A stretch of 53,502 nt of DNA, taken from IMG/VR virus record IMGVR_UViG_3300018432_000016, positions 1 to 53,502 of that record. One strand, 5' to 3'. Under the pieces are notes generated by a model. The model made no database searches, was not told where the DNA came from, and worked only from the letters and a program-made list of their open reading frames with translations. The stretch comes from a virus. The position numbers and the translations under genes are program-made. Below, in pieces: positions 8,166-48,326 of the stretch; position 1 is the first letter of the stretch; every line of letters starts with the position of its first letter.

Positions 8166-9085
8166 GAGCCGGCCTCGATGCGGCGCCGCTGCTCGTCGAT
8201 CAGATAGCCGAGGGGCGCCGTGTGCCCCTGCGGAGACCGGACGGGCACGTCGAGGAGGGGGAGGGCGCGGTGCCGGACGCCGGCCAGGTCCTCGACGGTC
8301 GTCGTCCCGACGGCGGCGGTCAGCGCCCGCGCGGCACGGTCGACCTCCTCGGGAGTGAATGGGCGGGACGGCTCGATGTTCGTGCGGTCCGGGTCGTCGG
8401 CGGCGCTCGCCTCCGTGGGGATCAGGAACGCGGCCAACAGGGCGGACTTGATGGCCTGCGAGTACGCCTTGCCGGTGGACTTGTCGCCGGTGTCAGCGCC
8501 CTCCCCCCACCCGTCCAGTTCCTCGGAGGAGCCGTCGGCGGCGAGGAACCGCAGGCGGACGTGGACGTGTGTCACGTAGTTGTACCCGGTGCCGGAAGAG
8601 CGGGGCCGCTGCTCTCGTTCCCGGTCCAGAGTGGAGGGGAGGACGACGAGCCCCACCTCGGCGAACAGGTCGTGCAGGGCGGCGTACACGTCGTCGATGC
8701 CCCGGAACGAGTAGCCGCCGGCTTTCTGTTCGGCCTGCCTGCCCTTGGCGATGGGCTGGACGCGGCGGAACACCTCGGCGAGCGCCTCGGCGGCGGTCAG
8801 CGGGTAGGACTCGCGGAGCGGCTCGGAGTCCGGCGAATACGCGGACTCGTCAATCTCGGGCAGCCGGCCGAACACGGGCACGCCGGAGAATGTCTCGACG
8901 GACACCGGTATCGCCCCCTGCGGCGTGAGGTGGAACGCGCCGATCGGGGGCAGCGCGTCGGACTCCGGCTCCGGCGTGGGCTGCTCGGGGGCGGGTAGGT
9001 CCTCGACGGGTGTCGGGGACGGGTCGACCGTGGTGGGCGCGGGTTCGCCGGCCGGCTCGGGTCGGGTGCGGGCGGCGGGCATCAT
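8162..9085 (-). CDS. ERF-family single-strand annealing recombinase
   Basis: The 307-residue product begins with an ATGATG doublet after CCTGGAGGC and a CCCACGCC leader. The ERF core lies about 100-230: YPLTAAEALAEVFRRVQPIAKGRQ, YSFRGIDDVYAALHDLF, VTHVHVRLRF, and GEGADTGDKSTGKAYSQAIK (194-213), which is highly diagnostic. It follows an RHH protein in the same transcript. ERF proteins anneal complementary strands, typically with SSB, for recombination-dependent replication or circularisation. The first 60 residues are a Pro-rich extension. Confidence 0.93.
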   Translation of the reverse strand: MMPAARTRPEPAGEPAPTTVDPSPTPVEDLPAPEQPTPEPESDALPPIGAFHLTPQGAIPVSVETFSGVPVFGRLPEIDESAYSPDSEPLRESYPLTAAEALAEVFRRVQPIAKGRQAEQKAGGYSFRGIDDVYAALHDLFAEVGLVVLPSTLDREREQRPRSSGTGYNYVTHVHVRLRFLAADGSSEELDGWGEGADTGDKSTGKAYSQAIKSALLAAFLIPTEASAADDPDRTNIEPSRPFTPEEVDRAARALTAAVGTTTVEDLAGVRHRALPLLDVPVRSPQGHTAPLGYLIDEQRRRIEAGS

Positions 9086-19009: not shown

Positions 19010-19213
19010 ATGCGCATCGCGACCCCCACCGCCCGCCGTTCCCTGACCCACGCCCTCCAGCCCGCCGGCACCCGCGCCGCATGCGGCCGGAACCTTCCGA
19101 CCGCTACCGTCCGGGAGACCGACGGCACCCGCGCCGACCTCTGCCTCTATGTCACCTGCGGTGCCTGCCGCGACCGCCTCAACCTCGACACGACGGGTAA
19201 GGGTCAGCGGTAA
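19010..19213 (+). CDS. Small Cys-containing protein (67 aa), leaderless
   Basis: The ATG lies five bases after the -10 box and has no ribosome binding site. The basic N-terminus is followed by RAACGRN and, near the end, CLYVTCGACRDRL. That gives a CG...CxxC arrangement resembling a zinc ribbon and the 82-residue protein at 44506-44754 (SCGAVR...VTCTKCRK). Probably a paralogous accessory protein. First gene of the plus-strand island. Confidence 0.7.
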   Translation: MRIATPTARRSLTHALQPAGTRAACGRNLPTATVRETDGTRADLCLYVTCGACRDRLNLDTTGKGQR

Positions 19214-19261
19214 CCGAACCCGCCCGGCCGCTCCGGGCGTAACAAATCGAGCGGGGGGACT

Positions 19262-19284
19262 GGCCGCCCCCGAGACTAGCGGCC
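19262..19284 (+). terminator. Short hairpin after the leaderless gene
   Basis: Arms GGCCGC (19262-19267) and GCGGCC (19279-19284) lie about 50 bases after the stop at 19213. Modest in strength, but it fits the promoter-gene-hairpin pattern. Confidence 0.4.
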
Positions 19285-19294
19285 CTCACTCTTA

Positions 19295-19316
19295 CGGGGG
19301 GGCATAGTGCCCCCCG
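19295..19316 (+). promoter_or_regulatory. Palindromic promoter region with CATAGT
   Basis: GGGGGGCA-TAG-TGCCCCCC is a perfect 8-bp inverted repeat enclosing a CATAGT -10-like box. GGGTAAAGTTCCCACGCCTAGGAG follows, so a transcript from it would carry the start-associated leader to the gene at 19345. An operator overlapping the promoter is likely. Confidence 0.45.
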
Positions 19317-19344
19317 GGTAAAGTTCCCACGCCTAGGAGCCGAT

Positions 19345-19641
19345 GTGTCATTCATGAGCAACCGCCCCCGTATCACTGCCGCCGCGATCCGCGACGCCGC
19401 GACCCGCCTCGCCGGGACGGTCGTCCTCGACCTCGCCGACCTGTCCGTCGGGCCGGCCCTGTACCTGCCCCGCCTGGAGGCGTTCGCGTCGATCGACGGC
19501 GAGGACCTCGGCGTCGACGACGGGACCCTCGTCGTCCTCGTGTTCCCCGGCGAGGCGCGGGACCTGATCGAGGAGCACGGCACGCCCGGCCGGGCGGCCG
19601 AGGTCCGTACCCGCGAGCTTCGCGCGGCCGGTGTGCTGTGA
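19345..19641 (+). CDS. Hypothetical protein of the plus-strand island (98 aa)
   Basis: It is preceded by the start-associated sequence TCCCACGCCTAGGAG in plus orientation, the only plus-strand copy. The start is a GTG just after the ribosome binding site; an internal ATG three codons later is possible. The alpha/beta-looking protein (GTVVLDLADLSVGPALYLPRL, TLVVLVFPGEARDLIEEHG) overlaps the next gene by 4 bases. No family recognised. Confidence 0.7.
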   Translation: MSFMSNRPRITAAAIRDAATRLAGTVVLDLADLSVGPALYLPRLEAFASIDGEDLGVDDGTLVVLVFPGEARDLIEEHGTPGRAAEVRTRELRAAGVL

Positions 19642-20342
19642 GCGTCCTCGCCGAGGTCGTGGACCTCGCCGCCGTCCGGGGCGCGCACGCCCGCGCCATC
19701 CCCGTCGAGCAGTACGTCGCCCCCCTCACGCTCGACGAGATTGACGCCGAGGTCGAGGCGATCCGCGCCGAACTCGTCCGCCCGTTGCAGCGCCTCGCCC
19801 GGTTGCGGGCGGCCGGCGCGCATCTCACGGCCGGATTCTCGACGTGGCATGAGGCGGTCGAGGCGTGGCTCGGGGACCTCCAGTCGCTCCGCCTCCAGGG
19901 CTCCCCGGAGGCGGTCGCCGAACGTGAGGCGCTCGTGTGGTCGATCCGGGAGACCGGGGCGGCGACGCGGGCGATCCGGGAGCGGCTCGGCGTGTCCGCG
20001 TACGCGGTGAACGAGGCGCTGCGGAAGCTCGACCCGGCGCCGGAGCGAGTGGAGGGCGCCGACGGCCGGTCCCGGTCGTCGAGGACGGGCCGGCAGCAGC
20101 CGGTCGAGGTGCTGCCGGCGCCGACGGGCCGCGTGTGGCAGGTGGCGGCGGAGTGGCTGCGTCGCCACCCGGGCGGGTTGACGCTCGTGGAGTTGGCGCG
20201 GGTAGCGGGCTGGACGGAGGGCAAGGCGTCCGGCGCCCTGTCCGACCTTGTGCGGGTGCGCGGGTTGGCGGTCCGCACGGAGGAGCGGCGGGACGGGCAG
20301 CGTGTCCACGTTCACGCGGTCGCCGGGGAGGTGACGGCGTGA
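19638..20342 (+). CDS. Protein with two helix-turn-helix-like segments (234 aa)
   Basis: GTG overlaps the upstream stop. Residues about 20-85 are helical (IDAEVEAIRAELVRPLQRLARL). About 95-135 (ATRAIRERLGVSAYAVNEALRKL) reads as a helix-turn-helix. The C-terminal 75 residues (VWQVAAEWLRRHPGGLTLVELARVAGWTEGKASGALSDLVRVRGLA) read as a winged helix. A DNA-binding regulator of the island or phage is likely. Confidence 0.7.
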   Translation: MSVLAEVVDLAAVRGAHARAIPVEQYVAPLTLDEIDAEVEAIRAELVRPLQRLARLRAAGAHLTAGFSTWHEAVEAWLGDLQSLRLQGSPEAVAEREALVWSIRETGAATRAIRERLGVSAYAVNEALRKLDPAPERVEGADGRSRSSRTGRQQPVEVLPAPTGRVWQVAAEWLRRHPGGLTLVELARVAGWTEGKASGALSDLVRVRGLAVRTEERRDGQRVHVHAVAGEVTA

Positions 20343-24885: not shown

Positions 24886-26844
24886 TCAGGCGGCGAGGAG
24901 TGCGGCGGTGTCGCGGGTGCCGGACACCATGCCGAGCGGCCGGGTCGTGATGACGCCCCGGATGGCCTCGACGCCCCGGTGTGCCACGCCCTCCCACGAC
25001 TCGGAGAACGTCTTGTACTCGTTGCGCTGGTTCAGCGTGGAGTCGCGGACGACGCCGAGGTCGAGGGTTCCGCCGTCGAGGTGCAGCATGTCGCCCTCGA
25101 CCCACAGGTTGGCCTCGATCTTGGCGGGGAACGCGGCCACGGCGCCGGCGGGGGTGAACGCCCCGTACGCCTGCGCGGGGATACCGCCGGTGGGGATGAC
25201 GCCGGCGGCGGCGGCGCGGGCCGGCAGCCCGTCCAGGTGCCATGTGATGTTGACGCCCCGGCGCTGGAACCACCCGTTGATGGTGGCGTCGGCGACGTTG
25301 AGCGCCTCCAGCTCCCCGGCCATGCCCCGCGTGAGGTCGGCGCGGAGCAGGTCGCGGACCCACTGCGGCAGCACCATGCGGAGGGCGACGGCGTCGTCGA
25401 GGCGGTAGAACGACCGGTACTGCGCGAGCAGGTGGTCGAGGAATGTCAGCAGGTCGCGGGTCGCCCCGAGGACCTCCCCGCCGGTGACGGTGGTCGACAG
25501 TGCGCCGAGCTGCGCGAGCAGCCGGTTCTCGGCGATGCGGGCGTGCGCGATCTGCGCGGCGGTGATGTTGGCGGCGGTGCCTTCCGGGTCGAACCGGGCG
25601 GAGGCGTTGCGGAACAGCAGGCACAAGGTGATGGCCTCGACGTACGCCTCGACCTCGCCGGGGCACAGCACCTCTAGGCATGGCTTCGTCGGCCCGGAGT
25701 ACACGCCGTCGACGGTGTTCGCCGGGTCGCCGGCCTCCTCGTCGTCGGCGAGGGTCCAGAATCCGACGGCGCCGGCGAGGTCACCGAACGACAGGTGCTC
25801 GCGCCAGCGGACGCCGCCACGCTCGGCGCCGAAGTTCGCGAGCGCGTCCCGGATGGGCCGGGCGGTGGAGCCGAGGACGGGCACGTCGTACAGGGACTCG
25901 ATGGGTCCGCACAGCCCGCCGGCGGCGACGATGGCGCCGTTCGACGCGGCGTACTCGCCGGCGGCGCGGAGCGCGTCCCGGGAGGTGGCGGCGGCCACGA
26001 TGGGCGTGTTCCGGTCGACGGAGTTCTCGCGGAGCATGCGCTCCTCGGGGAACGAGGTCCGGATGGTGGCGACGGGGACGTGCTCCCCGTCGGCGCCGGT
26101 GCCGTGTCCTCGGCGGATCGAGTCGATGCGCAGACCGAACGCGTCGCCGAGCTGCCGGGCGGATTCGATCACCCCACCGGAGTCGAGGCCGACGGCCTGG
26201 AGTCCGGCGGCGGCGACGAGTGCGTTCGACGCGCGGGGCGCCGTGTAGGCGGGTGCCTGCCCGGTACGGGAGGCGGGGGCGGTGCCGGAGCCCATGCCGC
26301 CGGAGGCGCCGGGGCGGGGGAGGGTGGTCGCGCGGCGGCGGGTGCCGGAGGCGGCGACCGGTTCGGGCTGCTGCTGCTGCGCGGGCTCGGCGGGTTCCTC
26401 GTCGGTGTTGCTGTCGCCGGTGTTGTCGCCGTCCTCGTCGTTCTCCTCGTCCTCCGGGCCGTCGGCGGGCCGCTGGAGGCGCTGGAGGGCGGCGGAGGCG
26501 GCGTCGCGGCGGGCGGTCTCCTCCTCCTCGATCTGCTGGAGCCGGCCCTCGGCGACCTCGACGGCGTCGCCGAGGGAGGTGATCCGCTCGATCGTCTCGG
26601 AGGTGACGGTGGCAACGTCGATGCCCTCGGCCTCGGCGCGGGCGGCCTCGACGACGGCGTCGAGGGCCTCGGCGTCGAGGGTGCCGAGGTACTCCTCGAT
26701 CTGCTGCCGGGTGAGGGGCTCGGCGCCGTCGGGCACGTCGAGGAAGGCGAGTGGCGACTCGGGGGCGTCGGCGACGAGCGCCAGCAGCAGACCGGAGTCG
26801 CTCCAGCGGGCGCGGGCGTTCGGGCGGTTCGGGCGGTGTGACAC
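24886..26844 (-). CDS. Major capsid protein with N-terminal scaffold-like domain (652 aa)
   Basis: GTG at 26844 follows CTGGAGGGGGCAACCC. Residues about 45-115 are a long coiled coil (EQYL-like QQIEEYLGTLDAEALDAVVEAA, VEVAEGRLQQIEEEE). About 115-205 are an acidic, Gln/Pro-rich linker, together like a fused delta/scaffold domain. The HK97-fold part follows: SFPEERMLRENSVDRNTPIV, GGLCGPIESLYDVPVLGS, RGGVRWREHLSF, LDDAVALRMVLPQWV, VNITWHLDG, RNEYKTFSESWEGVAHRGVEA. A protease gene lies upstream to remove the scaffold. It stands alone between two hairpins. Confidence 0.93.
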   Translation of the reverse strand: MSHRPNRPNARARWSDSGLLLALVADAPESPLAFLDVPDGAEPLTRQQIEEYLGTLDAEALDAVVEAARAEAEGIDVATVTSETIERITSLGDAVEVAEGRLQQIEEEETARRDAASAALQRLQRPADGPEDEENDEDGDNTGDSNTDEEPAEPAQQQQPEPVAASGTRRRATTLPRPGASGGMGSGTAPASRTGQAPAYTAPRASNALVAAAGLQAVGLDSGGVIESARQLGDAFGLRIDSIRRGHGTGADGEHVPVATIRTSFPEERMLRENSVDRNTPIVAAATSRDALRAAGEYAASNGAIVAAGGLCGPIESLYDVPVLGSTARPIRDALANFGAERGGVRWREHLSFGDLAGAVGFWTLADDEEAGDPANTVDGVYSGPTKPCLEVLCPGEVEAYVEAITLCLLFRNASARFDPEGTAANITAAQIAHARIAENRLLAQLGALSTTVTGGEVLGATRDLLTFLDHLLAQYRSFYRLDDAVALRMVLPQWVRDLLRADLTRGMAGELEALNVADATINGWFQRRGVNITWHLDGLPARAAAAGVIPTGGIPAQAYGAFTPAGAVAAFPAKIEANLWVEGDMLHLDGGTLDLGVVRDSTLNQRNEYKTFSESWEGVAHRGVEAIRGVITTRPLGMVSGTRDTAALLAA

Positions 26845-27914: not shown

Positions 27915-28118
27915 TCAGACGAAGTCAGGGTGTCCGGCGGCGTGCTTGGCGCCCTCGGCCTGCGCCTTGCCCTTGGCGACCTTGACGGCGGCGGGGAGGT
28001 AGGCGAACCGGACGCCGAGGTAACCGCAGGAGCAGACGGCCCGCATGGCCTTGCCTCCGCCGTTGCAGACGACGATGGTGCGGACGGTGTGGGCGGCGGG
28101 GGTGCTCGTCGTGTTCAT
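27915..28118 (-). CDS. Small Cys-containing protein (67 aa), leaderless
   Basis: The ATG lies six bases after TATATT and no ribosome binding site is present. VVCNGGGKAMRAVCSCGYLG suggests a metal-binding turn, then a Lys/Ala-rich helix (LPAAVKVAKGKAQAEGAKHA). Single-gene cassette with promoter and hairpin. Confidence 0.7.
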   Translation of the reverse strand: MNTTSTPAAHTVRTIVVCNGGGKAMRAVCSCGYLGVRFAYLPAAVKVAKGKAQAEGAKHAAGHPDFV

Positions 28119-28694: not shown

Positions 28695-29002
28695 GGCCGG
28701 CGGACCGGGTGCAGAGTCCACCCGGCGTCGTCGAGCAGCTCGACGAGGAGGTGCGCCTCGCCGGCGATCTTCCCCTGCCGCTCGTCGACCTCGACGAGCA
28801 CGTCGTCGAGCGCCTCGATCCGTTCGGCGCGGTCGACCTCGGACTCCTCGACGATGCCGGCGGCGACGCGGAGCCGCTGGACCTCCTCGACGAGCTGCCG
28901 GACGAGGTCCTCGTCGGAGACGAGGCAGCGGGGCTCGTCGCCGTCGTCGTGGGCGAGGGTGAGACAGGCGAGTTCCCGGGTCGTCCCGGAGATGACGCTC
29001 AC
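28691..29002 (-). CDS. Acidic coiled-coil protein (103 aa)
   Basis: GTG overlaps the upstream stop. Helical: EDLVRQLVEEVQRLRVAAGIVEES and ERIEALDDVLVEVDERQGKI. Translated with the GIY-YIG-like gene. Unknown. Confidence 0.65.
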   Translation of the reverse strand: MSVISGTTRELACLTLAHDDGDEPRCLVSDEDLVRQLVEEVQRLRVAAGIVEESEVDRAERIEALDDVLVEVDERQGKIAGEAHLLVELLDDAGWTLHPVRRP

Positions 29003-29460: not shown

Positions 29461-29466
29461 TTTATA
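29461..29466 (-). promoter_or_regulatory. Promoter -10 box TATAAA
   Basis: The minus strand reads CCCCGTGTATAAAGGGGGG, then the start-associated leader to the ATG at 29426. Confidence 0.6.
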
Positions 29467-29477
29467 CACGGGGAACT

Positions 29478-29768
29478 CTAGTCGTGGGGGATGACATTCC
29501 GGGGAGAGGCAGGCGACGCGGGTCGAGGGGTGAGGCTCGACCCGCGTCGCCACCGGGGCGGGGCGCCTGCACTGGCCTGCGGCAGCTCCCGGGCCGGGTA
29601 CTTGTGCGACACGTCGTACGGGTCGCCGTGCCGGATGGTAGCGCCGAGCATGAGCGCGGCCGGCAACCCGACGACGAGCAGCGGGGCGGCGGCGAGGACC
29701 GGGTGCGCGCCCCACAGCAGGGCGGCCAGCAGCCCGGCGGCGAGGAGTGCGGCGGCGTTGCCTCTCAC
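29478..29768 (-). CDS. Small membrane protein following the translocase (96 aa)
   Basis: GTG overlaps the translocase stop by 4 bases. Two hydrophobic segments (AAALLAAGLLAALLWG and VLAAAPLLVVGLPAALML) precede a polar tail. Co-translation with the FtsK/TraSA-like gene resembles the small membrane partners of plasmid transfer genes, but that link is inference. The last 25 codons overlap a strong hairpin. Confidence 0.65.
   Translation of the reverse strand: MRGNAAALLAAGLLAALLWGAHPVLAAAPLLVVGLPAALMLGATIRHGDPYDVSHKYPARELPQASAGAPPRWRRGSSLTPRPASPASPRNVIPHD
29512..29551 (-). terminator. Perfect 16-bp hairpin
   Basis: Arms GGCGACGCGGGTCGAG (29512-29527) and CTCGACCCGCGTCGCC (29536-29551), inside the 3' end of the membrane protein frame. 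It probably ends the translocase transcript; the frame may be functional only upstream of it. Confidence 0.8.
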
Positions 29769-31258
29769 GCCGGGATCCGCGTCGACGGGGCGTACAGCGG
29801 CCCGGCGATGACGGGGGCGGGCGCGTACCGGTCGGCGAGGACGGCGAGGGCGTCGTCGTCGACGTACGCGAACCGGCAACGCACCGGCTCCGACCCGCCC
29901 TCGGCGAGCACGTAGCCGACGCCGGGCAGCTCGGGGGCGATCTGCTCCGTGCGGGCGCCCCGGGCTCGGGCGCCGGCGCCGAGGATGAGGTCGCCGACGG
30001 GTTCGACGGTGCGCAGCCCGACCCGGTAGGAGATGAGGTCGCGGACGCCGAGGGTCTCTTTGCGGGGGTCCTGGGTGGCGACGACGACGGACACGGCGGC
30101 GGCCCGCCCTTGGGACAGGAGCAGGGACAGGGCGTTCTCGACGCGGGTGCGGATGGCGGGCGGGGCGTACGCGGTGATCGCCGACACCTCGTCGACGATG
30201 ACGAGGACCAGGGGTTCGGCGGCGGTCGGCGTGTGTGTGCGGACCGGGCCGCCGGGGCGGCGCGGGTTCCGCATGGCGAGGAGGCGGGTTTGCATGGCGG
30301 CGACGGCCTCGTCGAGGAGGTCGGCGATCGAGGTCTGCCACGGTGCCCCGCCGGCGGCCTGCCCCCCATACACGAACCGGTCGAACAGTGGCGCCCCGCC
30401 GGACAGTTCGGCCCCGCCCTTGGGGTCGACGGCCCACACGGACACGAGCCCGGCGCGGATGGCCGGCCCGAGCCCGGCGAGGAGGGACCAGACGACGGAG
30501 CCTTTTCCGGCGCCGGTGACGCCGGCGACGAGGAGGTGTGAGCCGAGGACGGGGAGGGTCAACGCGTGCCCGTCCTCCCGGACACCGACGGGCACTGCGC
30601 GGAGGTCGACCTCCTCGGACACCGGGGGGACGGGCACGGGTTGGTCGAGGGGGTCGCGGACGAGGCACAGCAGGTCCACCTCGTGGGGGCGGCCGGGCAC
30701 GGCGCGGGCTCGCGCGTCGAGGACGCCGAACGACTGCGCGAGCCGGTCCCCGGCTTGGCTCCAGTCGACGACGGTCTGCCCCGGCAGCATGCGGACCCGG
30801 ACCCGGTCGACCTCGCGGGTCGAGGTGACGGCGAGCAGGTCGGGCAGGTGCTCGCGTTTGCCTCGGATGGTGAGCCCGGCGGTCGAGGTGGCGGGCTGCC
30901 AGCGGCGCCGGTAGACGAGCGCCCGGCGGGTGCGTGCGCGGCAGCGTTGCCACACCCACCGGTCGAACCCGGGCGGGGAGGTCACTCTCCAGGCGACGAG
31001 AATCGTCACGACCGTTATTGCGCCTGCGGCGAACGGTGTCCACCCGTACCGGACGTGCGTCCAGGCGACGGCGGCGTGCCCGCCGAGGACGGCCACCCGG
31101 CGTGGCCGGCGGAGCAGCCACCCGAGCAGCCGCAGCAGCCACCCGAGCACCCACGCGAGGAGGAACAGCCCGGCGAACCGGCGGGCGAACCGCTGGAGAC
31201 TCCAGTCGACGACCCGCTGCCCGAGGGATGGGCGGAGCGAGTCGCCGAGGAGCCTCAC
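29765..31258 (-). CDS. FtsK/SpoIIIE-family DNA translocase of the TraSA/AICE type (497 aa)
   Basis: N-terminal hydrophobic helices at about 26-50 and 75-91 anchor it in the membrane. The RecA-type motor has Walker A GVTGAGKGS (246-254), a VDPKGG motif (277-282), Walker B LVLVIVDE (350-357) and SQGRAAAV...ATQDPRKE (382-401). LPGVGYV follows near 445. This string of motifs is what TraSA/TraB-like FtsK proteins of actinobacterial integrative conjugative elements and plasmids show. Those move double-stranded DNA between cells at hyphal tips. No DNA-reading gamma domain is obvious. It has a private leaderless GTG promoter and a terminator, so it behaves as an acquired cassette within head genes. 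A role in DNA transfer, segregation or packaging is open. Confidence 0.9.
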   Translation of the reverse strand: MRLLGDSLRPSLGQRVVDWSLQRFARRFAGLFLLAWVLGWLLRLLGWLLRRPRRVAVLGGHAAVAWTHVRYGWTPFAAGAITVVTILVAWRVTSPPGFDRWVWQRCRARTRRALVYRRRWQPATSTAGLTIRGKREHLPDLLAVTSTREVDRVRVRMLPGQTVVDWSQAGDRLAQSFGVLDARARAVPGRPHEVDLLCLVRDPLDQPVPVPPVSEEVDLRAVPVGVREDGHALTLPVLGSHLLVAGVTGAGKGSVVWSLLAGLGPAIRAGLVSVWAVDPKGGAELSGGAPLFDRFVYGGQAAGGAPWQTSIADLLDEAVAAMQTRLLAMRNPRRPGGPVRTHTPTAAEPLVLVIVDEVSAITAYAPPAIRTRVENALSLLLSQGRAAAVSVVVATQDPRKETLGVRDLISYRVGLRTVEPVGDLILGAGARARGARTEQIAPELPGVGYVLAEGGSEPVRCRFAYVDDDALAVLADRYAPAPVIAGPLYAPSTRIPA

Positions 31259-31265
31259 GGGGGGG

Positions 31266-31271
31266 ACAGTA
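31266..31271 (-). promoter_or_regulatory. Late-type -10 box TACTGT, leaderless start of the translocase
   Basis: TACTGT is followed by seven C and the GTG at 31258; a G-run just upstream pairs with the C-run. No ribosome binding site. Confidence 0.55.
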
Positions 31272-31288: not shown

Positions 31289-32131
31289 TCAGGCGGTGAG
31301 TTCGACGGTTGCCGGCTGGACGGTCGACCCGTTCCACACCCCGTCGAGGGTGAGCGGCTGCTCGGTCGTCCCGTTCCACAGTGACCACGCCTCGGTGGGC
31401 GGCGTGTAGTCGGCGACGGTGATGGCGTAGCGGTCCTGCACGTAGGAATGCCAGACGGCCCGTTCGGCGACGGTGAGCGGGTGATCCCAGATGCAGAACT
31501 CCCACATGCGCGCGGGTAGACAGTTGCTGCTGCCTGAGTTGGACAGGAACAGCCGGAAAGTGGCGGCGGCGCCCGTGTTCGGGGGCAGGTCGGTGGTCGC
31601 GGCGGTCGCACCGTCGCTGGTGCCGTTGTGGAACACCTCCGTCGTGAACCTGTCGGCGGCGGCGGTGATGACGTTGGGGACACCTGTGCTGATCGCGTCG
31701 CGGGTGTCGCTCCCGGCGGCGGCGCCGCCTTCCCGGTAGTTGGTGAGGCTGACGCTGGTCGTCGTGGGCACGTTCAGGATGAATCGGCGCGCCGCGACGG
31801 TGGCGCTGTAGACGGATGCGATGCCGCGCGGCGTGGTGCCGCTGGTGCGCTTCCACACGACGCCGACCGTGTAGTCGTCGGGCATGTCGAGGGAACCGGC
31901 CAGGGACACCCCCGACGTGGCGGTCGTGCTGACACAGGGGATGCCGTTGCCCTCACCGGCCGTGGTGGTGCGGACCGGTGCGCTCGCGGCGGGGGACGAG
32001 GGGGCGAGCGACTGTCCGGCCACCCGGTCGACCCACGTCGGGATGGTGTCCCCGTCGGCCTTGCCCGCCGTGGGGTCGTCGGACCGCCACCAGCGGAACA
32101 GGCCCGGAACGTCGGCGGGGGTGCGGGTCAT
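31289..32131 (-). CDS. LamG/concanavalin-like structural protein (280 aa)
   Basis: The beta-rich chain shows the LamG-type layout: GLFRWWRSDDP, IPTWVDRVAGQSL, DYTVGVVWKR, FHNGTSDG, MWEFCIWDHPLTVAERAVWHSYVQDRYAI. This is a jelly-roll lectin fold often found on phage fibres. Overlaps the repeat-rich fibre gene by 4 bases. The C-terminal 35 residues carry a short repeat (WNGTTEQPLTLDG/WNGSTVQPATVE). Probable sugar-binding decoration or side fibre. Confidence 0.75.
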   Translation of the reverse strand: MTRTPADVPGLFRWWRSDDPTAGKADGDTIPTWVDRVAGQSLAPSSPAASAPVRTTTAGEGNGIPCVSTTATSGVSLAGSLDMPDDYTVGVVWKRTSGTTPRGIASVYSATVAARRFILNVPTTTSVSLTNYREGGAAAGSDTRDAISTGVPNVITAAADRFTTEVFHNGTSDGATAATTDLPPNTGAAATFRLFLSNSGSSNCLPARMWEFCIWDHPLTVAERAVWHSYVQDRYAITVADYTPPTEAWSLWNGTTEQPLTLDGVWNGSTVQPATVELTA

Positions 32132-33477
32132 GCCGTGCGCAGGATGACGGTGCCGGCGGGGGTGCCGCCCGGCACGGCCGCCCCGGCGGCGAGGACGAGG
32201 AGCGGTTTCCCGGTCAGGTCGGCGTAGGCGCCGGTCGTGGCGACCGTGGCAAGTCCGGTGACCGTGGAGGCGGCCTGGGTGCCGGTGTGGTTGGCGCGGG
32301 CCTTCGCCGCCGTGTCCCCGGTGTCGACGTAGTCCTTGCGGGTGAGTTCGGATGCCTGTGCGGGCGGAGTTGCCGTAACAGTCATCCGTTGAGCGGCGAT
32401 TGCCGCGCCTCCTGCGGACCGGCGGACGAGGGTGTCGCTCGTTGCGCTGCTGGTTGCCCCGTCGAGGAGGGTGCGTAGGGCGGCGGGCAGCGTCTTGTTC
32501 GTGGTGCCGTCGGTGATGGTGTCCGCGTCCTGGGTGCCGGTGTGCGTGGCCCGGTCCCGCAGGGCGGCGTCGGTGGCGTTGGCGGTGGCCGAGGTCGTGA
32601 TGGTGATGGTGTCGGCAGCGTCGTTGACGAGTACCGAGATGTTGCCGAGGCCGACCATCGCCGCGCCGATGGTGTCCCGGATGGTTTCCGGGTCGATCGT
32701 CTGCCCGGTCCAGTCGATGGTGAGCGTGCCGGCCGCGTCGTCGTAAGAAATGTCGAGGTCGGCGCCGACGGCCTGCAACATGCCGCCGACGGTGTCCTCG
32801 ATGTACTCGCGGAGGTCGGTGATGCTCGCCGTCGTCTGTACGCCGGTGTGCGTCTCCCGGTCGCGGAGGGCGGCGTCGGTGGCGTTGGCGGTGGCCCCGG
32901 CGGCGACCCCGGCGAGCTTGGTGCGCTCCTCCGGGGTGATGTAGCCGGGGGTGAGGGCGTCGAGGGCGTCGGCGAGTTCGTCGTCGTCGACGTAGCCGGA
33001 CAGGTCGACGGGCGGTATGGCGGCGATCGCCGCGTCGAGTTGCTCGTCGGTCACATGCCCGGACAGGTCGACGCCGGGTATGGCGGCGATCGCGGCGGCG
33101 AGCTCCTCGTCGGTCACGTACTCGTCGTGCGCGTGCCCCTCGGGGGCGGCGGGGGCGCCGCCGGTCGCCGGCTCCAGGGTGTCGAAGTCGACCTCGTCCG
33201 GGTCTTCGTCGGCGACGAGGAACGTCCGGTCCCGGGGGCCGCCCGGGACGCGGTCCGTCCAGCGCATCCGGTACAGACCTCGGACGAGCCCGTCGACGCG
33301 GGCGGTCCCGTCGGAGCCGATGCGGACCCGCTCCGACCCGCCGACGACGCCGCCTGCCGTGTCGATGGGGCGGTCGAGGGTCAGGGCGCCGACGAGCCCG
33401 ACGGCGGCCGGCCGGCCGGTCGGGGACCGGTACGGCCCGAACGTGAGGGCGAACACGCCCGGGGCGGGTTCGGTCAC
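32128..33477 (-). CDS. Repeat-rich fibre protein (449 aa)
   Basis: GTG overlaps the protease stop. Residues 1-95 resemble a particle-binding domain. Three about 21-residue repeats of YVTDEELAAAIAAIPGVDLSG type occupy 120-176. The block ATANATDAALRDR-THTG-Q occurs at 195-214 and 297-316, with a third HTGTQ at 397-401. Such HTGTQ repeats are common in fibres of unrelated phages. Lies between protease and capsid, so may be a head fibre or a displaced tail fibre. Confidence 0.8.
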   Translation of the reverse strand: MTEPAPGVFALTFGPYRSPTGRPAAVGLVGALTLDRPIDTAGGVVGGSERVRIGSDGTARVDGLVRGLYRMRWTDRVPGGPRDRTFLVADEDPDEVDFDTLEPATGGAPAAPEGHAHDEYVTDEELAAAIAAIPGVDLSGHVTDEQLDAAIAAIPPVDLSGYVDDDELADALDALTPGYITPEERTKLAGVAAGATANATDAALRDRETHTGVQTTASITDLREYIEDTVGGMLQAVGADLDISYDDAAGTLTIDWTGQTIDPETIRDTIGAAMVGLGNISVLVNDAADTITITTSATANATDAALRDRATHTGTQDADTITDGTTNKTLPAALRTLLDGATSSATSDTLVRRSAGGAAIAAQRMTVTATPPAQASELTRKDYVDTGDTAAKARANHTGTQAASTVTGLATVATTGAYADLTGKPLLVLAAGAAVPGGTPAGTVILRTA

Positions 33478-35051
33478 GGCCGGCGGAGGCGGGCGAGACC
33501 GGCGCGGGCGGCGGCGGCCAGGACGGGGCGCATGCGGTCGTCGACGACGCGGCGGACCGCGTCCTCGTCGTGCCCGTGCCCCCGAGCCCGGCGGGTGAGG
33601 GGGGCGGACCCGGCGGCGAGGAGGACCCGCGCCCCGGATGCGGTGATGTGCGCGCGGCCCCGGATCGGGAAACCGGGCGTATTCACGCACAGGGCGGCGA
33701 CGAGCCGGACGTTCACGTCGCCCGGGTTGGCCCGCCAGTCCCCGGAGATTGGGTGTCGGCCGAACTCCTCGATCTGCTGCCGGGTCAGGTGGGGTCGCAT
33801 CGCCCCGGCGAACCACACGCCGAAATCGTCCTCGCCGACGATCACGTCCGCGTACGCCGACGAGGTCGAGTCGTAGTGCGCGAGCGCGGGCATGACGCCG
33901 TGATCCATGTTCATATCGTGGCCGCCCCCGAACGACAGGACACCGGTCGGCACCTCCTCGCCCTCCTCCGTGAACGTGGAGCCCTGCGAGGTGAACGTCC
34001 GGTACCCGGCCTCCCCGAGGCGGGGGGCGTACACCTCACGGTCGAGGATGCCGGCGTGCGGGACGCCCCACTGTGCGATGTACCCCCACACTTGCCCGGT
34101 GGGGACACCGTTCGGGCGGCGGCCGAGGTAGACGTGCCGGCCAGGATCGGGAACGTCGACGCGGGCGAACCATGCGCGCGGCGGCAGGACGGGGGCGATC
34201 GTTTCCGTGTCGGCGGCGACGGAGGCGAGGAGCGCCTGCCGGCCCCGGGCGGGCTCCAGGATGCGCAACGCGGAGGAGGCGACGACGGGCAGCGCCTCGG
34301 CGGGCTGCTCGGCGGGGGCGATCCCGGCCTCCTCGGCGCCGAGCCCGTCGTCGAGGACGATGTACGCGGACGGGAACGCGGCGAACGGGGTAACGGTGCA
34401 CTGTGCGATCGACCCTTGGGTTACGCGCATCCGGACCCGCTCCGGGAACCCGTCCTCGTCCTCCTCCAGCACGTCGATTTCGGCGGCGACCTCGCCGAGG
34501 TCGACGGACACGCCCCGGAGGACCTGCTCGCGCACGTAGTCGAGGGTCGCTCGGGAGCCGGGCTGGTCATCGTTGGGGACGAACCATCCGGTCGCACGCC
34601 ACCCCCACACGCCCTCCCCGAACGGCTGCCCGGTCTCCCGGTTGATTTCGGCGGCGAAGTCGAGGCGTTCCATCGTGTCCAGGCGACCGCACACGATCGC
34701 GGCGGAGTGACCTTCGAACCCGCCGTCCGGGTTGCGGAGCATCGCCATAAGCGACTGAGGCAGGTCACGGCGGCCGAGGCTGCCGGGCTCGATGTACCGG
34801 TCGTCGGAGGTCGTCCAGCCCTCCAGCACGACGGCGGGGATGGTGAACGGGACCCCGTTCTCCGGTGGGGCGAGCTGCTGGTCGAGGGGGGTGCGTTCGG
34901 CGGGCGGGGGGGCCTGCTCCTCGACCTCGACGACGGCCGGCGCCTCGTCCTCGACCGGGGGGGCGGTGGCGACGAGCGCGGCCAGCTCGCCGCCGGTCGT
35001 CCAGCGGGCGAGCGACTGCTCGGTTCCGAGCGGTCGGCGGGTGGCGGGCAT
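33474..35051 (-). CDS. Capsid maturation protease (525 aa)
   Basis: ATG at 35051 follows CAGGAGACACG. Central segments resemble actinophage capsid maturation proteases: VVLEGWTTSDDRYIEPGSL, GGFEGHSAAIVCGRLDTMERLDFAAEINRETGQPFG and SVDLGEVAAEID. The C-terminal half (GRHVYLGRRPNG, SYRTFTSQGS, HDMNMDHGVM, YADVIVGEDDFGVWFAGAMRPHL) may be a minor head part. Order portal-protease-capsid is canonical, though fibre and translocase genes intervene. It would cleave the scaffold domain of the capsid protein. Catalytic residues could not be picked out with confidence. Confidence 0.8.
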   Translation of the reverse strand: MPATRRPLGTEQSLARWTTGGELAALVATAPPVEDEAPAVVEVEEQAPPPAERTPLDQQLAPPENGVPFTIPAVVLEGWTTSDDRYIEPGSLGRRDLPQSLMAMLRNPDGGFEGHSAAIVCGRLDTMERLDFAAEINRETGQPFGEGVWGWRATGWFVPNDDQPGSRATLDYVREQVLRGVSVDLGEVAAEIDVLEEDEDGFPERVRMRVTQGSIAQCTVTPFAAFPSAYIVLDDGLGAEEAGIAPAEQPAEALPVVASSALRILEPARGRQALLASVAADTETIAPVLPPRAWFARVDVPDPGRHVYLGRRPNGVPTGQVWGYIAQWGVPHAGILDREVYAPRLGEAGYRTFTSQGSTFTEEGEEVPTGVLSFGGGHDMNMDHGVMPALAHYDSTSSAYADVIVGEDDFGVWFAGAMRPHLTRQQIEEFGRHPISGDWRANPGDVNVRLVAALCVNTPGFPIRGRAHITASGARVLLAAGSAPLTRRARGHGHDEDAVRRVVDDRMRPVLAAAARAGLARLRRP

Positions 35052-35317: not shown

Positions 35318-35538
35318 GTTCCGTCCCTCGGCATCCCGTCGCGTTCGGCGCCGCACTGGCAGCAGAACCACGCGATCATGGCGTCGGCCGGGTGCCACCA
35401 GTGCCCCCCGCCTCGGCGGCAGGCTCGGCGGGTTCTCCACCGGTGCCACGGGCTCGTGTCGACGAGGGGGCGGACGGGAAACTCGTACCCGCCGACGACG
35501 GGTGGTCGCACGGTGGCGTGGTGCGTCGGGTGGGTCAT
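35314..35538 (-). CDS. Small Cys/His-rich protein (74 aa)
   Basis: ATG overlaps the portal stop (ATGA). HWWHPADAMIAWFCCQCGAERDG suggests a zinc-binding knuckle. Located between portal and protease genes. Unknown. Confidence 0.65.
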   Translation of the reverse strand: MTHPTHHATVRPPVVGGYEFPVRPLVDTSPWHRWRTRRACRRGGGHWWHPADAMIAWFCCQCGAERDGMPRDGT

Positions 35539-38500
35539 CGGCGGGTACTCCTGCCCGTGCGGTCACGGTTGATGCCTGCGTTTTCGGCGGCGTGCTTGGC
35601 GGCGAGGGCGGCGTTCCCCTTGCCGGTGCGCGCGAAGTAGTACTCCGTCCAGGAGATGCGCCGGTTCCCCTCCAGGAACTCCAGCAGCTCCGGGGAGGCG
35701 TACCGGTAGACGAGCCGGATATCGCCGGCGAGGAGGTCCCGCACGTCGATGCCGCGCGCCTGCCCGGCGGCGTTGACGCCGTGCGTTTTCACGACCTCCA
35801 GGGCGGCGACGTACTGCTGCTCGACGTGGAGCGCGTACTCCTCCTGCACCTCGGCGCGGGTGGGCATCCCGTCGCGGGACCCGTGCCCGCCGACCCGGGG
35901 GTGTGTGACGCCGGGCCGGCCGAGGGTGGCGTCGAGATGTTCGTACGCCTCCTGCCACTCCCCGTCGGATGCCATGCGTTCGGCGAGGTCGTCGGCGATG
36001 CGCTTGTTCTCGTCGGTGTAGGTGAGGAACGCGTCGAGGTCATCCCAACGCTGCCCCTCGCGCGGGTCGAGGGAGTCCATGCGGGCGGTGAGGTGGACGG
36101 CGAGGTCGTCGAGCTGCTCGTCGGTCAGCGCCGACAAGTACGTGTAGTCGAGGCGCATCGGAATTCCGGCCTCGTCGGTGGCGGCCTGCCGGGTCCGGCC
36201 CCGCGCCTGCTGCCGGCGGGGCCGGACCGGCTCGGTCGGGGGGGAGACGACGGGCGGGCCGTTGCGAACGGCCGGGCGGGCAGCGGGGGCGGGCGTCGAA
36301 CGCTGCTCGATCCGGTCGGGTATGCGGTTGATGATCGAATTGAGGTTACGAAGTTTGCGGCGAGCCGCCTCCCGCTCCTCTTTGCCCATCTCGGAGGCGT
36401 ACCGAAGTTCGTCCTCCAGGATGCCGGTCCGCTCGCGGAGAGTGCGGCGGGCGGCGTCCGGGTCGCTGACATAGATCCGACCCTCGTCCAGGTCCACCCG
36501 CAGACCGGGCGCCTCCCCTTCGTCCTCCAGCAGTTCCACGCCGTAGCGCACCTCGTCGAGGGTCTCCTGCGAGGGGGCTCGGCCGGGTAGGCGTTCCTCC
36601 GTCACCTCCGGTGCGCCGTTGCGGGCGGCGCGGGCGGCCTCGACGGCGGACGTGGGGCGCTGCTCGGGGCGGCCGGTGTCGGGCAGGTACACCCGCTCGT
36701 CGACGGTGGCGTCCCGGGTGGGGATCGGGCGGCCCGGGTTCTGCTCCTCGTAGGCGCGGCGGCCGATGGTCTCCAGTTCGGCGCGGGTGTCCCGGCCGTC
36801 GGTGTAGACGGGCACGTAGTCGCAGTGACAGCCCTTGTGGTCGCCGGGGGCGAACGATCCGCCGATCCACTCGCCGCCGGTGCCGGACGTGTCGAGGGCG
36901 TCATCGTCGAACGAGGCGAACACGACCCCGTCGAGGTTGGCGTGCGGCCGGAACGGGCGGGCACTGATCCCGTAGGACCACTCGTATTCGACGACCTCCT
37001 GCCCGTGGTCGCGGAGGAACCCGTCGAGCAGCTCCCCGGAGGTGAGCCCGTTCCGGACGCCGGTGCCGGAGTCGTCGCCGGGGACGCCGCCGACAACGGC
37101 GAGGGCGTCGCGGACGAGCCCCGGCGGGACGATCGAGGACGGCAGTTCGCCGACCGGGTCGACGGTGGGATCCGGGTCGTACAGGCGGTCGGCGGCCAGG
37201 TCGCGGAGCCCGCCCTCCAGGACGGGCCACGACGCGTCGGCGTTGTCGGCGAACCGGTCGCGGAGGGCGCCGATCTGCCGGGCCACGTCCGGGTCGGTGC
37301 GGTCGAGGTCGGCGATGCCGACGGCGGCGTCGAGCGCCTCCTCGGCGGCGGTCGCCGTCCACTCCGTGTACTGCTCGCGGAGCCGGCCGAACGCCTCGGC
37401 GAGGAGCTGCTGCTCCTCCAGCCCCAGGGCGGCGACGAGGGGCCGGCCGAGGGAGGCGAGGACCTGCTCGGGTGGCTGCCCGGCGACGGCGTCGCGGGCG
37501 GCTGGTTCCCGCTGCGCGGCGGCGCGGGCACGGTTGCCGGCCCGTTCCAGGGCGCGGAGGAGGGCGGCGTCGGCGGCGGCGGCGATCCGCTCGCGGAGGG
37601 TGCGTTCGATGTTGGCGAGCCGGCGGGATAGGCGCCGCTGCCTGTCGGTGGGTGCGGCGGCGGCGGCGAGCGCGAGGGGGGCGGCGGAGGCGGCCGGCAG
37701 GGCGGGCGCCTCCGGTGTTGTCGGCTCCTCCGCCGGGGCGTCACCGGCGGGCAGGGCGGCCGGCCCGGACGGGGGGACGCCGGGGATTGCGCCGGTGTGT
37801 GCCACTGAGAGGCCGAGGACCCGGTTCACGTCGTCCGGTTCGTAGCCGGCGCGGAGCAGTCGGTCGGCGATGGTGGCGACCTGGAGGAGCCGCTCGACGG
37901 CGAGCCCGGTCTCCCCGACGGCGTCGTCGCCGGTCTCCACTTCCTCCGGCGGGGCGTGCGACTCGTCGATGCCCCGCAGTTCCCGGTACGCCCGGCCGTC
38001 GATCAATCCACGGTCGTAGGCGTCGTTCGCGGCCGACGACATATCGGCGGGGGCGACGAGTCCGGACGGGTCGAACCAGACGACGACCCGGCGGATCAGG
38101 TTCTCCGGCCACGCCCCGACGGAGCGGAGCCGGTGCCGCATGTAGCCGAGGGTGAGCCCCTCGACGGCGGCGATGGTGATGGGCTCTTGATGGTGCCGGA
38201 ACGTGTCGGAGCTGATCTGCCACGCGTTCCAGTGGTTCACGTCCGACAGCCCGGTAATCACCTCGGGCGGCACGTCGAGGCCGATGCCGAGGCGGGTCAG
38301 CAGCCGCGCCTCCCGCTCGTTCGTGAGCGGGTCGAGGGGCCGGCCGAACGTGAGGTGTCGGACCCGGTCGAGGTACTGGTAGGCGCCCCGCTTGATCATG
38401 GGGACGACCTGCGCGGCGGAGCCGTCGAGGGTGAGCGGGGTCGTTAGCTGTGTAACGAAGTCCCGGTCGAACTCGTCCTCCTCGTCGTCTTCGTCGGGGA

Positions 38501-39374
38501 GCGCGTCCAGCTCCTCCGGCCATAGGAGGACACCGTTCCCGGAGGCGCGGGACCGGAGGGCGGCGTCGTCGCCCTTTTCGATGAGGAGCAGCCGCTCACA
38601 TACGCCGATGAGGGAGCGCATGGGGGAGTCGGGTTCGGAGGACCATTCGGCGTCGGCGGTCCATAGGCGGACGACGGTGGTCGTCGCCGGGTCCAGGTCG
38701 ACGGCCTCGGAGTCCCGGCCCTCGCCGGTGACGAGCCGGAAGTAGCCGGGCGGCAGTTCGGGGTTCATGCCCCGGAACCGGCCGTCCTGGAAGGTCAGCT
38801 CCGATATGGAGCGGATCGCCCACTCCTCCCGGCCCTGCCCGTTGTCGGCCTCCGGGTAGTAGCGGCCGACGAGGTAGCACTCGCCGGCCTGTTCGTAGTT
38901 GCGGGTGAGGGGGGACAGGATCGCGGCGCCCCCGCCGGACGGCGAGTACCCGGTCAGTTCGTTGAGGGCGGAGCGGGCGGCCTGGACGAGGTCGTCGGGG
39001 AGGGCGTCGGTGTCGTACACGGCGGTCGTGCCGTCGCCGGATTCGATCCACCCGTATTCGTCGGTGAGTTCGGCGACCTCGTCGGCGCCGTCGGGCCGGT
39101 CCCCGGCGTACAGCCGGATATGGGCGGCGTTGTTGGCAAGGAACCGCATTGCGTACCCGACCTCGGGCAGGGCGCGGGCGTACCCGAACGAGGCGCGCTG
39201 CCACTCGCGGCGCTTGGATGCTTTGGCGAGGCGGGCGCCTTCCTGCGCGGTGATGACGGCGGCGGAGGCGACGAGGGAACCACGCGCCCGGGGGCGGCCG
39301 GTCAACACCTCAGCGAACGGGGAGGACCTCCGGGCGGGGCGGACCCAGTCGAGCCAGGCGGGCAGAGTTGCCAC
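35535..39374 (-). CDS. Portal-MuF fusion with long C-terminal extension (1279 aa)
   Basis: GTG at 39374 follows GGGAGTGACCC. Residues about 1-540 are portal-like (NNAAHIRLY, LTRNYEQAGECYLVGRY, QISSDTFRHHQEPITIAAVEGLT, RGLIDGRAYRELRGI). After an Ala/Pro linker (540-575), about 580-880 look like a MuF head morphogenesis domain with GDHKGCHCDYVPVYTDG (844-860). About 890-1279 match nothing I recognise: helical, basic Arg/Gln-rich centre, ending YYFARTGKGNAALAAKHAAENAG. Portals are usually 450-550 residues. MuF C-terminal extensions in other phages can carry enzymatic or toxin domains delivered with DNA, so this tail is a candidate ejected effector (inference). Confidence 0.85.
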   Translation of the reverse strand: MATLPAWLDWVRPARRSSPFAEVLTGRPRARGSLVASAAVITAQEGARLAKASKRREWQRASFGYARALPEVGYAMRFLANNAAHIRLYAGDRPDGADEVAELTDEYGWIESGDGTTAVYDTDALPDDLVQAARSALNELTGYSPSGGGAAILSPLTRNYEQAGECYLVGRYYPEADNGQGREEWAIRSISELTFQDGRFRGMNPELPPGYFRLVTGEGRDSEAVDLDPATTTVVRLWTADAEWSSEPDSPMRSLIGVCERLLLIEKGDDAALRSRASGNGVLLWPEELDALPDEDDEEDEFDRDFVTQLTTPLTLDGSAAQVVPMIKRGAYQYLDRVRHLTFGRPLDPLTNEREARLLTRLGIGLDVPPEVITGLSDVNHWNAWQISSDTFRHHQEPITIAAVEGLTLGYMRHRLRSVGAWPENLIRRVVVWFDPSGLVAPADMSSAANDAYDRGLIDGRAYRELRGIDESHAPPEEVETGDDAVGETGLAVERLLQVATIADRLLRAGYEPDDVNRVLGLSVAHTGAIPGVPPSGPAALPAGDAPAEEPTTPEAPALPAASAAPLALAAAAAPTDRQRRLSRRLANIERTLRERIAAAADAALLRALERAGNRARAAAQREPAARDAVAGQPPEQVLASLGRPLVAALGLEEQQLLAEAFGRLREQYTEWTATAAEEALDAAVGIADLDRTDPDVARQIGALRDRFADNADASWPVLEGGLRDLAADRLYDPDPTVDPVGELPSSIVPPGLVRDALAVVGGVPGDDSGTGVRNGLTSGELLDGFLRDHGQEVVEYEWSYGISARPFRPHANLDGVVFASFDDDALDTSGTGGEWIGGSFAPGDHKGCHCDYVPVYTDGRDTRAELETIGRRAYEEQNPGRPIPTRDATVDERVYLPDTGRPEQRPTSAVEAARAARNGAPEVTEERLPGRAPSQETLDEVRYGVELLEDEGEAPGLRVDLDEGRIYVSDPDAARRTLRERTGILEDELRYASEMGKEEREAARRKLRNLNSIINRIPDRIEQRSTPAPAARPAVRNGPPVVSPPTEPVRPRRQQARGRTRQAATDEAGIPMRLDYTYLSALTDEQLDDLAVHLTARMDSLDPREGQRWDDLDAFLTYTDENKRIADDLAERMASDGEWQEAYEHLDATLGRPGVTHPRVGGHGSRDGMPTRAEVQEEYALHVEQQYVAALEVVKTHGVNAAGQARGIDVRDLLAGDIRLVYRYASPELLEFLEGNRRISWTEYYFARTGKGNAALAAKHAAENAGINRDRTGRSTRR

Positions 39375-46475: not shown

Positions 46476-48326
46476 TCAGCTCCTCGGGGCGGTCGGTAGT
46501 TGCTGGTTGGCGACGGTCGTGGAACCGCCCCGGCGGACGCCGAGGAGCCGGGTCACGAGCCACACGTACGCGTCGAGGCGGCCCGGTGACTGCTGCCCCT
46601 CCGTCCAGGTCGTCAGTTCCAGCTCCAGGAGGGGCAGGGTGCCGACGTGCGAGACCTTGTTCGTTTCGACGGCGACGGCGACCGGCGTCGCCCGCAGCCG
46701 CTTGCCGACGGTGGCGGTCACGCCGTGCAGGCGGGCCGGGGGTGCGCTCGTCGCCGAGTCGAGGAGTCCCCGTTCGATGCGGTCGAGGACCTCGGCGAGC
46801 TGCCGCAGGTCGCCGGCGTCGGCGGTGACCTCCTCGGCGGGGAGGCGCTGCTCGACTGCCGCCCACCGGAGGGCGGCGCGCTGGAGGAGTTCGTCGCGGC
46901 CGACGGGGCGGCCGGTGGGGCGGCGGGTGAACGGGTCGACCTCGCCGGCGTCGGTGACCTCGTCGAGGGTGCGTGCCTGCCGGACGAGCCGTTCCCACGC
47001 CTGGACGAGTTCGTTCCGGAAGGTCTGCGGGACGAGGTTCTGTTCCCACACGACCTCGTCGGCTTGGGTGTCGACGGCGAGGAGCCACGCGGCGCGGGTC
47101 CACTCCGCCGAGGTCATGCGGCGCGAGCGGTCGTGGGTGACGTAGGCGCGGCCATCTTTGCCCCGGTAGCCGGCGACGAGCCCGGCCTCGTCCTGCCCGC
47201 CGGAGGAGGGGTCGACGGCGACGACTCGCAGCGTCGACGCGCCGACGTAGTCCGACGGCCGGCGGTTGCGGGCGATGGGCGCCTCGGCGAACACGGCGCC
47301 CTCCGGGGGGGTGGGGTGCTGCTGGTACAGGGAGCCCCACGCGGTTTCCCCGACCTCCAGGCGGCGGAGCTGCCAGTCCTCGGGGGTGCGGCCTCGGGCG
47401 GATTCCAGCCACTCGCCGGGGGGGCGGCCCAGCGAGTCGGGGAGCCACCCGGGGGCGAGGTTGCCGTCGTCGTCGAGGCGCGGGGCCTCCGCCTGCGCGG
47501 GGATCGACACGAACTCCCATCGGCGTAGCTCGTCGGGGAGGGCGCGTTCGTGCCCCAACACGTAGCCGTACAGGTCGTCGGGGTGCCACCGGGTTTGGGT
47601 GAGGATGACGAGGGCGGCCGACGGCAGTCGGGGGACGGCGACGTTCTGCCACCAGGCGAGGACCTTCGCCCGGTGCTCGGGGGAGTCGGCCTGCTCCCGG
47701 TCTTTGTACGGGTCGTCGACGAACAGGGCGTCGAGCGGTTTCCCCGTCCACCCGCCGCGCATGCCGTAGGCGATGAGCCCGCCCCGGTGCCCGGCGATCG
47801 AGAACCGGGACACGCTCGTCGAGTCGCCCCGGAGACTGATCCCGAGGAGATCCTGCGCGAGGGGGCGCGGGTTGAGCACCGTCCCCGACCCGTAATCGGC
47901 GATCCAGTTGCGGACCTCCCGGGAGAATGTGGTCGCCACGTCCGCCTCGAAACTCGCGATCCCGATGCGGAGGTCGGGGTTACGGACGAGCAGCCATAGG
48001 GGGGTGGCGATGGTGAGCCGGCGCGATTTGCCCTCCTGCGGTGGGGCGGCGACGGCGAGGCGGGCGGAGTGCCCGGCTTCCATGCGTTCGACGGCGCGGA
48101 GGACGGCGGCGTCGATGAGGGCGAGCGCCGGCGTTTCGACGGTGGCGAGCGGGTCGATCGCGTGCGCGAGGGCGCCGGGTGACGGGTAGCGGGTGCGGCG
48201 ACGGCGCCGCGCGAGTTCGCGGGCCACGCGTTCGGCGACGGCGACCCGCTCGTGTGCGGGCAGGTCGCGGGTCGCGGCCTCCAGGGCGAGGCGGAGCCGC
48301 TCGCGGTCGACGACACCCGCCGTCAT
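46476..48326 (-). CDS. terL: Terminase large subunit
   Basis: The 616-residue protein has a helical N-terminus. Its ATPase has Walker-A-like APPQEGKS, FSIAGHRGGLIAYGMRGGWTGKPLDALFVDDPYKD (Walker B FVDDP), and ILTQTRWHPDDLYGYVL (coupling motif). The C-terminal nuclease half has VVAVDPSSGGQDEAGLVAG (acidic residue), a THDRSRRMT loop, and RLDAYVWLVTRLLG. It translocates DNA into the prohead through the portal and cuts it. Overlaps the holin-like gene by 4 bases. Long for TerL: an extra 90 residues precede the ATPase. Confidence 0.95.
   Translation of the reverse strand: MTAGVVDRERLRLALEAATRDLPAHERVAVAERVARELARRRRRTRYPSPGALAHAIDPLATVETPALALIDAAVLRAVERMEAGHSARLAVAAPPQEGKSRRLTIATPLWLLVRNPDLRIGIASFEADVATTFSREVRNWIADYGSGTVLNPRPLAQDLLGISLRGDSTSVSRFSIAGHRGGLIAYGMRGGWTGKPLDALFVDDPYKDREQADSPEHRAKVLAWWQNVAVPRLPSAALVILTQTRWHPDDLYGYVLGHERALPDELRRWEFVSIPAQAEAPRLDDDGNLAPGWLPDSLGRPPGEWLESARGRTPEDWQLRRLEVGETAWGSLYQQHPTPPEGAVFAEAPIARNRRPSDYVGASTLRVVAVDPSSGGQDEAGLVAGYRGKDGRAYVTHDRSRRMTSAEWTRAAWLLAVDTQADEVVWEQNLVPQTFRNELVQAWERLVRQARTLDEVTDAGEVDPFTRRPTGRPVGRDELLQRAALRWAAVEQRLPAEEVTADAGDLRQLAEVLDRIERGLLDSATSAPPARLHGVTATVGKRLRATPVAVAVETNKVSHVGTLPLLELELTTWTEGQQSPGRLDAYVWLVTRLLGVRRGGSTTVANQQLPTAPRS

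Follow-up and report, generated by a model that had tools for sequence, protein, structure and literature searches.

An AICE-type Tra translocase in the virion-gene region of a lineage of circularly permuted actinophages

The window, by which we mean the whole stretch of DNA that was analysed, comes from IMG/VR, where it is filed as a viral contig; it is 53,502 bases long with a GC content of 74%, and the minus strand is the coding strand for nearly all of its genes. Read along that strand, the terminase large subunit is followed by a portal-related protein, gene 51, a decoration/fibre-like gene, a LamG-like gene, the FtsK-like gene that is the subject of this study, several small ORFs in succession and the major capsid gene, and then by tail genes, a tape measure, an endolysin, an Erf recombinase, an SSB and a DnaC-like loader. 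The earlier note had placed the FtsK-like gene among phage late genes, and it does lie among the virion genes, in the interval bounded by gene 51 and the capsid gene. No match was found when 25 kb of the window were compared with phage records by megablast, and of the cultured phages, those of Arthrobacter match the capsid protein best (44% identity over 59% of its length). Three genes at 19010-20342 run on the plus strand, against the minus-strand majority, and the third of them (19638-20342), which is conserved in related contigs L097 and L153, has a MarR-like winged helix at the C-terminus of its product, a candidate regulator. The features of the locus are as follows, with related contigs given by their L numbers.

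46476..48326, minus strand: terminase large subunit (TerL; phrog_38, E 2e-70), the phage's own packaging motor
35535-39374, minus strand: portal-related protein
33474..35051, minus strand: gene 51, a portal/virion/protease-related head protein (PHROG matches, synteny) lying ahead of the FtsK slot in every relative
32128..33477, minus strand: decoration/fibre-like protein, absent from the slot of L003, L004, L005, L097 and L153, with a partial relative in L152
31289..32131, minus strand: LamG/concanavalin-like protein, present in the window and absent from the slot of the same five relatives
31266..31271, minus strand: −10 element TACTGT, 7 nt upstream of the GTG
29765..31258, minus strand: FtsK/SpoIIIE-type membrane-anchored DNA translocase of the AICE Tra (pMR2) type, 497 aa, GTG start (PF01580, trees, AlphaFold2 and Foldseek, dN/dS)
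29478..29768, minus strand: small membrane-protein ORF, 96 aa, overlapping the FtsK stop
29512..29551, minus strand: perfect 16-bp hairpin with an 8-nt loop, terminator-like, without a U-run (fold energy)
24886..26844, minus strand: major capsid protein (phrog_777, E 2.7e-73), the downstream boundary of the accessory region holding the FtsK-like gene

The translocase frame reads from a GTG at 31258 to a stop at 29765, and all of the motor motifs that had been picked out in its 497-residue product (GVTGAGKGS, VDPKGG, LVLVIVDE, SQGR...ATQDPRKE and LPGVGYV) are found there and are conserved among its relatives. A profile search, proposed in the earlier note, gave a match to PF01580 (FtsK_SpoIIIE) of 35.1 bits, above the curated cut-off of 24. 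Modelling with AlphaFold2 and 24 relatives produced a mean pLDDT of 88.5, and the model begins with three N-terminal helices (residues 12-49, 52-71 and 74-93) and one long helix, followed by a small alpha/beta domain (about 130-200) and the RecA motor. Hydropathy and the model together predict an N-terminal membrane anchor, and with three helices in the model an earlier description of two hydrophobic helices was nearly right. The model ends with a helix at 468-478 and a disordered tail of 15-19 residues, leaving no residues after the motor for the gamma/winged-helix domain of FtsK and TraB, which is absent. In the Foldseek ranking the FtsK motors of E. coli and Pseudomonas (2ius/6t8b) came first, then the pCW3 coupling protein TcpA, then EccC and HerA, while A32-like ATPases ranked low.

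Beyond its own phage lineage, the nearest relatives of the protein are Tra translocases of AICEs (actinomycete integrative conjugative elements; pMR2 and similar elements), which conjugate by means of this one protein, at about 35-45% identity. The best plasmid matches were pMR2 (41% over 80% of the query), a Mycobacterium avium plasmid, and sequences from Gordonia, Nocardia and Nonomuraea, with TraB of pSVH1 matching far more weakly than the pMR2 group. Among 84,980 prokaryote genomes searched, the best matches (40-44%) came from Kribbella, Nocardioides, Marinitenerispora, Nonomuraea and others, and tblastn against phage records returned only Gilgamesh (28%) and unannotated Listeria 'phage' pieces. 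pMR2, from Micromonospora rosaria, gives its name to a Tra clade that is paired with RepSA-type replication proteins (Ghinet et al. 2011, PMC3218068), and the AICE module order is tra-rep-xis-int (PMC3218068). The loci that we fetched agree with this, as a Rep protein of the RepSA/AICE type lies in the neighbourhood of 18/18 AICE tra loci (L006-L010, L017-L029), immediately downstream of tra wherever it was located, and often with an integrase also present. One further contig filed as viral, L098 (IMGVR_UViG_2873330523_000001), carries an FtsK-like tra together with RepSA and a tyrosine integrase, and is an AICE misfiled as viral.

In the motor tree, the proteins of the window's phage lineage form one clade (support 100/99), and in two trees this clade is nested within the AICE clade (99/98, and 100/99 once long branches were removed), with chromosomal FtsK, EccC and the TraB proteins of pSVH1 and pFP11 falling apart from it in both. 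These trees, the homologues and the Foldseek result bear out the proposal that this is a conjugative translocase of the type found on actinobacterial mobile elements. As to the TraSA/TraB likeness suggested for it, pSVH1 TraB belongs to a separate clade; pSAM2 TraSA was not in the tree and search collections, and the clade that can be named is the one containing pMR2. An origin from host FtsK, which would place the protein inside the chromosomal group with its gamma domain, is ruled out by the trees and by the missing C-terminal domain. We therefore regard the assignment to the AICE-type Tra translocases as well supported. Since support for placing the L153 copy in the phage clade is weak (94/34), a single capture by a phage ancestor is likely rather than proven. 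Our literature search found nothing on AICE-type Tra in phages.

Related contigs were gathered with both the translocase protein and gene 51 as queries. A scan of viral contigs with the major capsid protein returned only the L097 contig, and the survey of presence and absence therefore rests on the gene-51 scan. In L003, L004, L005, L097 and L153 the FtsK-like gene comes directly after gene 51, the two fibre/LamG-like genes that separate them in the window being absent from these five, and where the contig extends far enough (L005, L097, L153) the capsid gene comes next, past small ORFs. With the window included, 6/6 contigs covering the slot have the FtsK-like gene; L152 and L154 end too soon to be informative and were left out of this count. 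One gene order, circularly permuted, is shared by the window, the L097 contig (54,860) and the L153 contig (55,735), whose lengths span 53.5-55.7 kb, and each of the three is probably a near-complete genome. Such maps are consistent with headful packaging or with a circular genome. Identities between the window and L153 are 48% for the FtsK-like protein, 52% for the capsid protein, 47% for the DnaC-like protein and 61% for TerL, and by these values the translocase has diverged at about the pace of the core genes. Purifying selection is seen in the comparison with L003, where dN/dS is 0.30 for the translocase and 0.12 for gene 51. Judged from synteny and divergence, the translocase gene is a long-resident, fixed part of this phage lineage and not a recent passenger.

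The promoter predicted for the gene is likewise of a phage type. A leaderless start had been claimed for it, and we found this to be supported well beyond chance, as in 6/6 orthologues a TACTGT stops exactly 7 nt short of the start codon despite differing flanking G/C tracts, and a TANNNT box 3-10 nt before the start precedes 11/83 called genes in the window compared with 2/383 in-frame internal controls. By this enrichment, leaderless starts are habitual for this phage. The FtsK box belongs to a TANCNTCC-like class that also precedes genes 26, 59, 70, 71 and 72, which argues for a phage-type promoter rather than a clearly imported one. Separately, a near-identical box of ~45 nt (GGTACTTCCCCCCGGGTAATACCCGTGYATATAATCATCCC-ATG) is found before four leaderless small genes with minus-strand starts at 28118, 40003, 44754 and 45815, with CCCGTGTATA occurring additionally at 29463, a pattern that looks like a phage regulon with a repeated promoter/operator.

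The location from gene 51 to the capsid gene, in the virion region, and its retention over long divergence could indicate that the motor aids the virion life cycle, placing or pulling phage DNA at the membrane in late infection, during packaging or injection. However, the phage encodes its own TerL, making a packaging role unlikely, the protein is FtsK-like with membrane helices and its own promoter, and its nearest folds are FtsK and TcpA, not terminases. We consider such an aid to the virion quite improbable, and identity of the protein as a packaging ATPase is ruled out by the separate TerL gene and by the best fold matches.

There is a 4-nt overlap between the FtsK stop and the small ORF (29768-29478), whose product shows two hydrophobic peaks, in keeping with the small membrane protein reported at this position. 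The conserved part spans about residues 1-58, and tblastn found relatives in phage contigs only (L003, L005 and L097), with none in L153 and none in the AICE loci inspected. The protein encoded after tra in pMR2 is soluble and of another kind. On both counts, import of an AICE cassette of two genes is ruled out, and by its homologues the overlapping ORF is a phage gene, not AICE-derived. The predicted 16-bp hairpin is real and terminator-like, with exact arms at 29512-29527 and 29536-29551, a fold energy of −40 kcal/mol and z = −6.7, and it sits in the poorly conserved 3′ part of the 96-aa ORF. With the gene fixed in the lineage, diverging as core genes do, and using a promoter class shared with other phage genes, and with a small ORF that is not an AICE neighbour, the idea of a recently imported cassette did not hold up.

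Other parts of a mobile element were looked for in the window. Scanning for clustered repeats of the plasmid clt/TRS kind, as had been suggested, returned coding-repeat clusters only, the best being CTCGACGA x5 at 28728-28854 inside coding gene 44, while the same scan recovered the TRS of pSVH1 at 8158-8256. With no C-terminal winged helix in the protein and no clt-like cluster found in the window, there is no support for sequence-specific DNA loading. By phmmer and Pfam, neither RepSA nor an integrase was found in the window, which contains phage head, tail and terminase genes instead; two AICE Rep proteins used with phmmer found all of the AICE loci and nothing in the window, and the Pfam RepSA model, which matched L098, gave no match in 14 control genomes. 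No Spd proteins were identified in the phage. The circular gene map of three contigs and the lack of tyrosine/serine integrase matches in the window leave room for an extrachromosomal life, in which the motor would sort or resolve circles of a plasmid-like prophage at division. Against such a segregation role, no AICE-type Rep and no partition gene were recognised among the window genes scanned, circular permutation is equally expected from headful packaging, and the protein has no gamma-like domain for reading polar sequences, and we think it very unlikely.

The translocase is also found in shortened forms. Those of L005 and L097 retain both membrane helices and motor, and lack about 100 residues in between, which correspond to the alpha-like domain. 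These two proteins are 83% identical while the gene-51 proteins are only 77% identical, and between the window and L005 gene 51 is 84% and FtsK 64% identical, a discordance suggesting that translocase alleles have been exchanged between phages. A second group of siphophage contigs (L100, L102, L103) carries a 310-aa, membrane-plus-motor AICE-like Tra after DnaB/primase genes, with a terminase a few kb on (TerL phrog_9 and portal phrog_113 downstream), and this protein type has therefore either entered phages repeatedly or moved between them. Viral contigs L106, L115 and L118 have FtsK-like proteins of about 745-770 aa that join pSVH1-type TraB (91-100% support, long branches), and L115 encodes a tape-measure relative too.

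As L005 and L097 have kept the motor but not the linker/alpha-like region, the ancestral pumping geometry would seem dispensable, and it is possible that DNA transfer is not the point of the gene. A membrane-anchored Tra-like motor could instead act on host FtsK, on resident AICEs or on the DNA of superinfecting phages, blocking them or taking them over, and so serve exclusion or host takeover. In line with interference of this kind, the gene is moron-like in having its own promoter, a terminator-like hairpin and a small membrane partner, and phage FtsK-like proteins are classed under moron/host takeover in PHROGs. On the other hand, Walker motifs and motor residues are retained under purifying selection in all orthologues, and PADLOC gave only weak cross-matches to mad8, SspH and HerA, with no partner genes noticed; identity as a defence protein was set aside. 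We regard interference as rather unlikely, and it is the strongest rival to a role in moving DNA.

Comparison with known systems helps to place the protein. A single protein, Tra in AICEs and TraB in Streptomyces, suffices to move dsDNA between mycelia (PMC3218068, PMC4170104). Like the Tra proteins of the pMR2 clade, the phage translocase combines membrane helices, an alpha-like domain and a motor in one protein of ~450-550 aa with an ATQDPRKE-type signature. Where AICEs have a RepSA-type rep and int/xis after tra, however, the phage has kept tra alone, in its virion-gene region and behind a phage-type leaderless promoter, with clt not found. TraB of pSVH1 (Streptomyces venezuelae) likewise has an FtsK-like motor and conjugates dsDNA as a single protein, but at 772 aa it has about 100 residues past the motor, and a C-terminal winged helix reading the clustered 8-bp TRS repeats that adjoin its gene; the phage model is without such a domain. 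Chromosomal FtsK of actinobacteria and E. coli shares the motor fold (2ius, 6t8b), whereas it forms a separate clade (100/99), and its long N-terminus and about 100 post-motor residues are absent in the phage. FtsK/SpoIIIE-domain proteins also occur in cultured phages (Mycobacterium cluster J phages such as Courthouse, Streptomyces phages Gilgamesh and Geonosis, and Thermobifida phage P1312), but by tblastn these have at most about 28% identity to the window protein, that of Gilgamesh lies outside the AICE Tra clade, and none of the genes inspected is located between portal/protease genes and the capsid gene. FtsK-like genes are often annotated in phages, and to our knowledge no role has been assigned to them.

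The reading that we tentatively put first, and that seems possible rather than probable, is that a captured AICE Tra gene, now resident, moves dsDNA across host membranes or septa. Phylogeny, synteny and promoter conservation show that a Tra gene of the pMR2-containing AICE clade was captured by an ancestor of these circularly permuted actinophages of ~54-56 kb and became resident under a phage-type leaderless promoter. Going by its fold and family, the translocase should be a hexamer that pumps dsDNA and is anchored in the host membrane through the N-terminal helices. This pump would move intracellular dsDNA, mostly that of the phage, through septa or from one cell to a touching neighbour, or, if the host is mycelial, from one hyphal compartment to the next, and phage DNA might thereby spread, or clear closing septa, without a virion. 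With neither a winged helix nor clt, DNA would be loaded without strong sequence choice or through a separate phage adaptor. In favour of a pump we count the AICE/plasmid Tra homologues, the nested trees, the Rep-linked AICE loci, the FtsK-like fold with membrane helices, the fixed slot and purifying selection described above, and the 310-aa version in at least one other phage group. Counted against it are the lack of a clt cluster, of a DNA-recognition domain and of Rep, Spd or integrase genes, and the ~100-residue loss in L005 and L097. The further step, that a tailed-phage lineage also spreads its naked ds genome between actinobacterial cells or hyphal compartments using a captured conjugation pump, we consider doubtful, although if true it would be a second, virion-free transmission route for a virus.

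These results trace a phage FtsK-like gene to one particular source, namely the single-protein pumps by which actinomycete elements conjugate, and show it retained over long divergence in one virion-region slot, also in shortened forms. It offers a testable case of viruses that may borrow conjugation, or interfere with it, in bacteria with septate mycelium.
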